A stretch of 6,263 nucleotides of DNA from Chloroflexota bacterium (lineage in GTDB: Bacteria > Chloroflexota > Anaerolineae > UBA3071): the NCBI GenBank assembly GCA_014383605.1, contig JACNHM010000207.1, positions 1 to 6,263 on the forward strand, written 5' to 3'. Below are positions 1,493 to 5,235 of the stretch, one piece after another. The notes beneath the pieces are model-generated. The model ran no database searches, was not told where the DNA came from, and was given only the letters and a program-made list of their open reading frames with translations. A program made the translations under genes and the position numbers. Each line of letters begins with the position of its first letter. The stretch's first letter is position 1.

Positions 1493-1966
1493 ATGGCCAA
1501 GAGAGTACAGATCAACACACCGGCTCCGGGCTTCACCCTCGATGATTTCCGAGGGCGGGCAGTGAGCCTTTCGGACTTCGGCGGCGAGAAACACGTTTTC
1601 CTGGTGTTCAACCGCGGCTTCGCCTGACCGTTCTGCCGCCGGCACATGGCGCAGTTGCGCCAAGACTACGGGGAGTTCGTGGCACGAGACGCTGAGATCG
1701 TGGTCGTCGGTCCGGAAGACGCGGAGGCCTTTGAGCGTTACTGGACGCAAGAGAACCTGCCTTTCGTCGGCCTGCCCGACCCCAAGAACAGCGTGCTCAA
1801 GCTGTACGGTCAGGAGGTCAAGCTCTTCAAACTGGGCCGCATGCCCGCGCAAGTGCTCGTGGACAAGCAGGGCACAGCACGTGATGTCCATTACGGCCAT
1901 TCCATGAGCGACATCCCGCCCAACGAGGAGCTTCTGGCCTTGCTGGACGAGTTGAATGGGGGATAG
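1493..1966 (+). CDS. Peroxiredoxin-like selenoprotein with UxxC active site (TGA at codon 45 read as Sec)
   Basis: A GGAGAGG ribosome binding site (1484-1490) precedes the ATG at 1493. The frame encodes 157 residues if the single in-frame TGA (1625-1627) is read through. The N-terminus (PAPGFTLDDFRGRAVSLSDF) and strand VFLVFNRGF are typical of the AhpC/TSA thioredoxin-like fold. The motif reads A44-[TGA45]-P46-F47-C48-RRHMAQLR, where cysteine relatives have W-C-P-F-C. The TGA therefore replaces the first catalytic Cys of a CxxC redox motif, the classic sign of selenocysteine. Downstream the fold continues intact: EIVVVGPE near 68-75, a thioredoxin-fold cis-proline candidate P118 in GRMPAQVLVD, and a C-terminal helix. 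Likely role: cytoplasmic peroxide or disulfide reduction. It needs the Sec machinery (SelA/SelB/SelC/SelD) encoded elsewhere. The alternatives are a nonsense mutation or sequencing error. Starting at the ATG at 1646 would remove the active site. Confidence 0.8.
1633..1662 (+). promoter_or_regulatory. Candidate bacterial SECIS element
   Basis: Two mutually exclusive hairpins follow the TGA at 1625-1627. The first has CTG (1633-1635) paired with CAG (1652-1654), a bulged C1636, CGCC (1637-1640) paired with GGCG (1648-1651), and a loop GGCACAU (1641-1647). This architecture (3 bp, one bulged base on the 5' side, a short upper stem, a loop starting GG) resembles the minimal fdhF SECIS of E. coli, although its loop begins only 14 nt after the TGA, slightly close. 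The second is TGGCGC (1647-1652) paired with GCGCCA (1657-1662) around AGUU, 25 nt after the TGA, with a G at loop position 2. Either would bind SelB in principle; which one forms cannot be decided by eye. Confidence 0.55.
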
Positions 1967-5113: not shown

Positions 5114-5115
5114 GA

Positions 5116-5198
5116 CAGATTGAGATAGAGAAAAGAGATAGAGATAGAGAGGCCAGCACAAGCTCTATCTCTATCTCCTCTAGCTCTATCTCCATCTG
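5116..5198. repeat. Long GAGATA-repeat stem-loop between binding-protein and permease genes
   Basis: The stretch starts 2 bp after the binding-protein stop. GAGATAGAGATAGAG (5135-5149) pairs with CTCTATCTCTATCTC (5163-5177) around a 13-nt loop. Outside it GAGATAGAG (5122-5130) pairs with CTCTATCTC (5184-5192), and CAGAT (5116-5120) pairs with ATCTG (5194-5198), for 29 bp in total with small internal loops. The arms are built from a 6-bp GAGATA period. In the known malE-malF arrangement, a structure here protects the upstream mRNA and lowers permease expression. The same role is inferred for this one. There is no U-run, so full termination is unlikely. Confidence 0.8.
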
Positions 5199-5235
5199 CA
5201 CCTGCCCCCCCTCTCCATCTGCTCGGAAGGCTGCT

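Follow-up and report, generated by a model that had tools for sequence, protein, structure and literature searches.

A conserved in-frame UGA codon of a peroxiredoxin-like gene in Chloroflexota is very probably read as selenocysteine

Results

The stretch of DNA analyzed here (the window) comprises 6,263 nt of contig JACNHM010000207.1 (assembly GCA_014383605.1) of a Chloroflexota bacterium, and all positions are given in window coordinates. On the plus strand, positions 1493–1966 contain a gene of 157 codons for a protein of the PF00578/PF08534 type, starting with ATG and ending with a TAG stop codon (1964–1966), in which a single TGA codon (codon 45, 1625–1627) is very probably translated as selenocysteine (Sec, U), yielding a peroxiredoxin (Prx)-like UxxC selenoprotein. 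A first-pass annotation made from the sequence alone had described this frame as intact except for one TGA at the first position of a CxxC-type motif, and the sequence confirms both points: the sole in-frame TGA is located in the context NRGFA-TGA-PFCRR and opens the motif U-P-F-C, the partner cysteine of which is encoded by codon 48 (TGC, 1634–1636) and was found in 81 of 81 sequences. AGGAG at 1483–1487, 5 nt upstream of the ATG, is a probable ribosome-binding site. The complete read-through frame scored 77.4 bits against PF00578 (cut-off 26) and 58.6 bits against PF08534. Codon 52 (1646–1648) is an ATG, encoding Met in 81/81 sequences, with which a frame of 106 codons begins that scored 34.9 and 25.1 bits on its own. 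It had been predicted that standard annotation would report only this 106-residue protein without the active site; it is indeed what a mechanical list of open reading frames (ORFs) returns, and it exists as database entry P0021, on 9 contigs.

Searching 5.8 billion proteins yielded 7434 matches, of which the best 120 were used to count the residues at position 45, and a search of genomes yielded 432 loci encoding a relative, of which the best 80 were read as DNA. Because the query carried Cys at position 45, the genome search was not biased towards stop codons. Codon 45 was TGA in all of these 80 loci, with one in-frame stop per match, and chance is therefore no explanation for the TGA. The proportions of nonsynonymous and synonymous differences (pN/pS) among 81 sequences were 0.28/0.77 upstream and 0.20/0.76 downstream of the TGA. 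Among 298 sampled genomes from the class of the nearest relative, 85 (29%) gave a total of 86 matches of at least 173 bits, and each of these matches contains TGA (two also TAG); the exact place of the TGA was checked for the matches that overlap with the loci read as DNA. Immediately below this score follows L116 in genome G358, which has TGC. A search of 400 genomes from the phylum with a Cys homolog (P0065) as query located 50 places, distributed over 47 genomes; 49 of these places have TGA and only L116 does not, so that DNA-verified Cys orthologs are almost lacking. Pattern matching picked 23 from 30 phylum loci of this search, 22 with TGA and one false match.

Among the 120 best-listed database proteins, 61 are of full length with Trp at position 45, and 46, including the window's own, begin at Met52. 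Judging from the protein records, both forms appear to be products of gene callers confronted with the TGA. Nine others contain Cys at position 45 in the protein record, and these might include records in which U of the source was converted to C. P0059 is out of frame around this position. Homologs with Cys or Sec at position 45 had been named beforehand as support for the Sec assignment, and they were found, as TGA in the 80 loci and as Cys in L116 and these nine proteins. Close homologs with neither residue had been named as evidence against it: none occurred among these 80 loci, and three protein records, P0008 and P0055 with Arg and P0039 with Leu, are of this kind at the level of the protein entry.

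Bacterial selenocysteine insertion sequences (bSECIS) have been modelled as hairpins with a loop of 3–9 nt, a G within the first two nucleotides of the loop, a distance of 16–37 nt from the UGA and a folding energy of –7.5 kcal/mol or lower (PMC13188914). The hairpin UGGCGC-AGUU-GCGCCA at 1647–1662, with a stem of 6 bp (1647–1652 paired with 1657–1662) and the 4-nt loop AGUU (1653–1656), has –10.0 kcal/mol, and stem and loop start 19 and 25 nt after the UGA, respectively. The SECIS-like hairpin claimed in the first-pass annotation thus lies within the published model. Its energy is unremarkable for the composition (z –0.67; 41 of 200 shuffled sequences folded as well), and minimum free energy by itself does not set it apart; its significance derives from the comparison between species. 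In bins of five codons, pS was lowest, 0.27, in the bin of codons +5 to +9 after the TGA, compared with 0.59 and 0.56 in the flanking bins and 0.65–0.98 elsewhere, and this is due to the conserved core ATGGCGCAGTTGCGYC. Codons +8 to +10 were almost fixed as GCG for Ala (79/80), CAG for Gln (80/80) and TTG for Leu (81/81); elsewhere in the same genes these codons made up 22%, 70% and 23%, and other conserved Ala, Gln or Leu columns mixed their codons. All six stem pairs were formed in 77 of 81 sequences and five in the remaining four, compared to six pairs in 7% of controls that had been synonymously recoded with the codon usage of the same genes. The loop was AGUU in 80 sequences and GGUU in one. 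Paired changes that keep the stem occurred in L006 (G27-C34 to A-U) and L067 (G25-C36 to A-U), both altering the protein (R to C and A to T). These are only two cells, a number reached by none of 500 shuffles, though the rows are related; with so little variation in the element, two-sided changes are few. The number of pair types was reached by 128 of 500 shuffles. The limit of –7.5 kcal/mol was passed by 63 of 81 hairpins versus 4.7% of the recoded controls. In the main branch, the bSECIS core AUGGCGCAGUUGCGYC is nearly invariant and common to several phyla. L116, the closest Cys relative for which the DNA is known (45% identity to the window protein), has no hairpin at the corresponding place, and its core is no longer intact (CTGACTCAACTTCGG).

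From the weaker matches of the class sample, 20 with and 20 without a listed TGA were picked, with stops aligned as C. The TGA aligned with position 45 in 19 of the former, and L145 has Cys; among the latter, nine have Cys, nine have Thr or Ser (TPGC and similar motifs, BCP-like) and two could not be aligned at this position. In all 19 TGA loci (22–45% identity), the UGA is followed at a distance of 17–25 nt by a hairpin that has G within the first two nucleotides of its loop; in three loci this hairpin was weaker than –7.5 kcal/mol. Across the PF00578-fold Sec sites, the motif appeared as UPFC, UMQC, UGPC, UPWC, UPHC, UPYC and the Cys-less UPFA. The last version, Sec without partner Cys, was observed in L152 with an intact hairpin. 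A second Prx-like family (L137–L140, L144, L147, L148) carries UMQC, UIQC or ULQC, followed by a hairpin at 25 nt from the UGA, and no hairpin passing the energy limit was detected in its Cys sister genes L117–L119. Redoxin domains with UGPC or UGVC in frames of 223–598 residues, with TGA and a hairpin 21 nt downstream, were found in L141–L143, L146, L150 and L151. In L155, L167, L172, L175, L179, L181 and L183, the site is followed by LAR-L/F/M-R, and the predicted loop is located 16–17 nt instead of 25 nt after the UGA, perhaps as a switch of register.

The genes for Sec incorporation, the absence of which from the genome had been named in the first-pass annotation as evidence against Sec, were searched in genomes of relatives, and most of these carry them. 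SelB was above the cut-off in 35/40 and 36/40, together 71 of 80 genomes, and in 2 of 14 control genomes. All four sel genes were assessed in 50 genomes, namely those of L001–L040 and ten others, four chosen for missing SelB and six for other phyla. SelA was above the cut-off in 45 (controls 1/14) and SelD in 41 (controls 2/14), and 40 of these 41 genomes carry a copy of SelD with a TGA of its own. tRNA-Sec was above the gathering score in 45 genomes versus 5/14 controls, and reached at least 61 bits in 44; matches up to 53 bits are probably other tRNAs with a long arm. Four sel genes were present in 32 of the 50 genomes, three in 12, two in three, one in one and none in two. The genome of the nearest relative (L001, genome G001, 87–88% identity) contains selA, selB, selC and selD. 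SelA is common throughout the class sample, with 250 of 298 genomes at E 1e-30 (246 above the cut-off); it was found in 80 of 85 genomes with the TGA gene versus 170 of 213 others (Fisher p 0.0016, uncorrected for kinship). For KSB1 genomes, selA, selB and selD, and no selC, have been reported (PMC9012183). In the KSB1 genome that contains L053 (G053), a tRNA-Sec match of 71.6 bits was obtained, and SelD was not found.

An AlphaFold2 model of the protein (predicted local distance difference test, pLDDT, 89.2; predicted template modelling score, pTM, 0.86) has a helix that starts at residue 46, directly behind the Sec. Strands one to four of this model and its active-site turn lie outside the part that begins at Met52. 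In the alignment, Sec45 coincides with the Thr of the peroxiredoxin TxxC motif and Cys48 with the position of the peroxidatic Cys. P118 is part of R116-M117-P118 (1838–1846), in which R116 and P118 were conserved in 81/81 sequences, and it is presumably, from its place in the alignment, the cis-proline of the thioredoxin fold.

According to the titles of the records, the 80 loci belong mostly to Chloroflexota and otherwise to Thermodesulfobacteriota, Actinomycetota, Myxococcota, Calditrichota, Spirochaetota, KSB1, GN15 and a Clostridia bin; nearly all are from metagenome-assembled genomes (MAGs), the bins of which can contain foreign contigs. A tree calculated with a quick method left 52 of 102 inner branches open, contained several long branches and was used only for nearest neighbours and the mixture of phyla. 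The 918-kb plasmid of the cultured bacterium Thermomicrobium roseum carries a homolog (L186, 42% identity over 139 residues), which immediately follows an alpha/beta hydrolase gene and has the same hairpin after the UGA. In the annotation of the complete plasmid record, this homolog is represented by TRD_RS15230 (NC_011961.1, 545266–545394), a 'hypothetical protein' of 42 amino acids ending at the UGA, which is probably the piece of the selenoprotein before the UGA. No selA was found in the plasmid record, and a term search of the T. roseum genome paper for the string 'selen' had no hit (PMC2615216). Three plasmid records matched in total, of which that of T. roseum was analyzed in detail and a second as its annotated region, no relative was found in viral contigs and phages gave no match at 1e-10.

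No cluster of neighbours was common to more than 10 of the 81 loci. Such counts are lower bounds, because ORF picking loses genes (the hydrolase of L001 was missed) and many loci end early. Recurrent neighbours were DUF4345, DUF1295, DegV, alpha/beta hydrolases and a B12-binding MerR regulator. In some Anaerolineae (L007, L039, L067, L075 and others), the B12-binding MerR-type regulator, DUF1295 and DegV are located near the selenoprotein gene, perhaps constituting a light- or stress-response neighbourhood. In the window, the 3'-terminal remnant of an alpha/beta-hydrolase gene (plus strand, 1343–1474, about 40 codons; 15.9 bits with a Pfam cut-off of 26.3), recognized from its relatives, ends 18 nt before the selenoprotein gene. 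A complete alpha/beta-hydrolase gene is found directly upstream in several relatives, and L001, L065, L068 and L186 of T. roseum have the hydrolase at this place. The body of the gene is missing from the window, which has 381 bp where L001 has about 1215, due to either a deletion or an assembly join. Downstream, the plus strand encodes a Gfo/Idh/MocA-type oxidoreductase, an extracellular solute-binding protein and an ABC permease. The minus strand (3–829) encodes a protein of secreted appearance for which no Pfam match reached the cut-off, and an apparent frame change near 131–212 may indicate a broken gene or an indel. Between two transporter genes, positions 5114–5200 form an imperfect inverted repeat of GAGATA-type units, for which Rfam gave only microRNA matches below the gathering score. 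In the whole window, no tRNA gene was found, and none of 12 Rfam matches reached the gathering score.

Discussion

We consider it very probable that the gene at 1493–1966 encodes a Prx-like selenoprotein of 157 residues with a thioredoxin fold, in which UGA codon 45 would be read as Sec. What the comparison of sequences establishes is that the UGA is kept in the close relatives examined, that the frame is conserved at the protein level before and after it, and that a bSECIS hairpin begins 19 nt downstream. Several observations weigh against this assignment. The values of pS are near saturation and the rows are related and mostly from MAGs, which makes the ratios and counts rough. Of the hairpins in the 81 sequences, 18 fall short of –7.5 kcal/mol, and three of ten Cys loci pass this limit, with 9-nt loops, while seven fail. 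In L163, a TGA locus, the core is GCGCATTTGCGC, with CATTTG where others of its type have CAGTTG, so that the usual loop loses its G and the hairpin is weak (–4.3 kcal/mol). The sel genes of the window's own genome are deduced from those of its relatives. No sel gene was above threshold in genomes G016 (1.7 Mb) and G061 (1.8 Mb), although in G016 a partial SelB (228 bits) is present where a contig ends, and altogether 6 of 50 genomes lack two or more sel genes. Likewise, SelA was missing from 5 of the 85 genomes of the class sample that contain the TGA gene.

Among the alternatives, a true peroxiredoxin, in which Cys48 would be the peroxidatic residue and Sec45 a helper, is the least improbable, and we still regard it as unlikely. 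Peroxiredoxins are defined by PxxxT/SxxC(U), with the Sec or Cys last in the motif, and by a catalytic Arg. No PxxxT/SxxU ends at position 45, since residue 38 is Val or Ile in 81/81 sequences and residue 42 is Gly in 67, Thr or Ser in 12 and Ala in two. Cys48 does coincide with the position of the peroxidatic Cys, but Sec45 thereby occupies the place of the Thr, and 9 of the 40 weaker matches, the BCP-like ones, have Thr or Ser there. P118 aligns with an Arg in 2ywn, presumably the catalytic one. We therefore agree with the first-pass annotation in calling the protein peroxiredoxin-like and UxxC, and reject the designation as peroxiredoxin, because Sec45 and Cys48 are at the Thr and peroxidatic-Cys positions, respectively.

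Far less probable is that the TGA is a real stop, resulting from a pseudogene or a sequencing error, or that the product is the 106-residue protein starting at ATG 1646. ORF lists and database entries do give this protein, Met52 is invariant, and the two genomes without a sel gene above threshold would fit. A decayed or misread gene is difficult to reconcile with the same TGA as single stop per match in all 80 loci and with codons upstream of it that are conserved as protein. A late start would leave the ribosome-binding motif at 1483–1487 in front of the other ATG, none being found 5' of 1646, and would produce a protein missing the model's four N-terminal strands and its active-site turn. 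Even more remote is a reassignment of TGA to Trp (table 4), for which the 61 of 120 database homologs with Trp could be invoked: these are best explained, judging from the protein records, as table-4 gene calls, mostly on short contigs, TGG occurs 31 times and TGA not once in the three other genes of the window, 36 of the 80 family genes terminate in TGA, which is hence a stop in those genomes, TGG at codon 45 was found in none of the 80 loci read as DNA, and a general reassignment would need no conserved hairpin.

If codon 45 is read as Sec, SelB together with Sec-tRNA(Sec) would decode the UGA, and Sec45, located where the first long helix begins, would be the attacking residue, acting on a disulfide or a peroxide. 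Cys48 could then resolve Sec45 as a selenenylsulfide, which would be reduced by a thioredoxin-type system. The protein is probably cytosolic, as no signal-like N-terminus was discernible by eye, and its most likely role is thiol:disulfide or peroxide reduction in stress defence. In many database entries, the shortened and the Trp-bearing ones among the best 120, the active site of this widespread redox enzyme is missing or miswritten. With corrected annotation, many Chloroflexota, most of them uncultured, and some Thermodesulfobacteriota and Actinomycetota would gain a selenium-dependent enzyme. We see about an even chance that Anaerolineae, the class of the nearest relative, are an overlooked selenoprotein-rich lineage, with the Sec site in at least seven motif versions, and that the gene may have passed from phylum to phylum together with its SECIS.

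Three selenoproteins were counted for Chloroflexota in 2006 (PMC1794560), and formate dehydrogenase is known to contain Sec in Chloroflexi (PMC5736913). In the literature searched, no paper dealt specifically with Prx-like selenoproteins of Chloroflexota, which does not prove that none exists; the main text of the deep-Sep study (PMC12013277) contains neither 'Chloroflex' nor 'Prx'. The kind of selenoprotein is already known, and it is the window's branch that is often mis-annotated. UxxC/UxxU Prx-like thiol:disulfide oxidoreductases of PF00578 are tabulated with WP_010940744.1 as representative (PMC13188914, Table 1), PF00578 UxxC selenoproteins also appear in other surveys and reviews (PMC9312934, PMC1088965, PMC5029168), and the name 'Prx-like 1' has been used (PMC2398784). 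The same domain is shared by the Sec-peroxiredoxins (TxxU; PMC13188914), which have the Sec last in the motif, in contrast to the window protein with its Sec first, at the position of the Thr.

By domain and motif, the window protein appears to belong with the known PF00578 UxxC 'Prx-like' selenoproteins and not with the true peroxiredoxins, and it has the PF00578 domain and the UxxC motif in common with the former. Compared with the published representatives by domain and motif, the window's subfamily differs in being mainly from Chloroflexota. It also includes rows from Syntrophaceae, the family to which Syntrophus belongs, as well as from Smithellaceae and Desulfuromonas. A Prx-like selenoprotein of this type was named for Geobacter and Syntrophus aciditrophicus in the 2006 survey (PMC1794560), and the S. 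aciditrophicus protein may be identical to one in the Syntrophaceae rows. No NCBIfam model was above its cut-off for the window protein, and the best match, NF040769 for SelL-related proteins, reached 71.6 bits over residues 10–106 with a curated cut-off of 120. SelL carries the motif UxxU, in contrast to UxxC in the window protein. The fold is similar to that of the ResA/TlpA oxidoreductases (Foldseek E 2.2e-10 and TMq 0.71 to ResA 2h1b), the redox pair of which has the same spacing. ResA chains in the Foldseek list share 24–27% identity with the window protein, which differs from them by the absence, by eye, of a membrane anchor.
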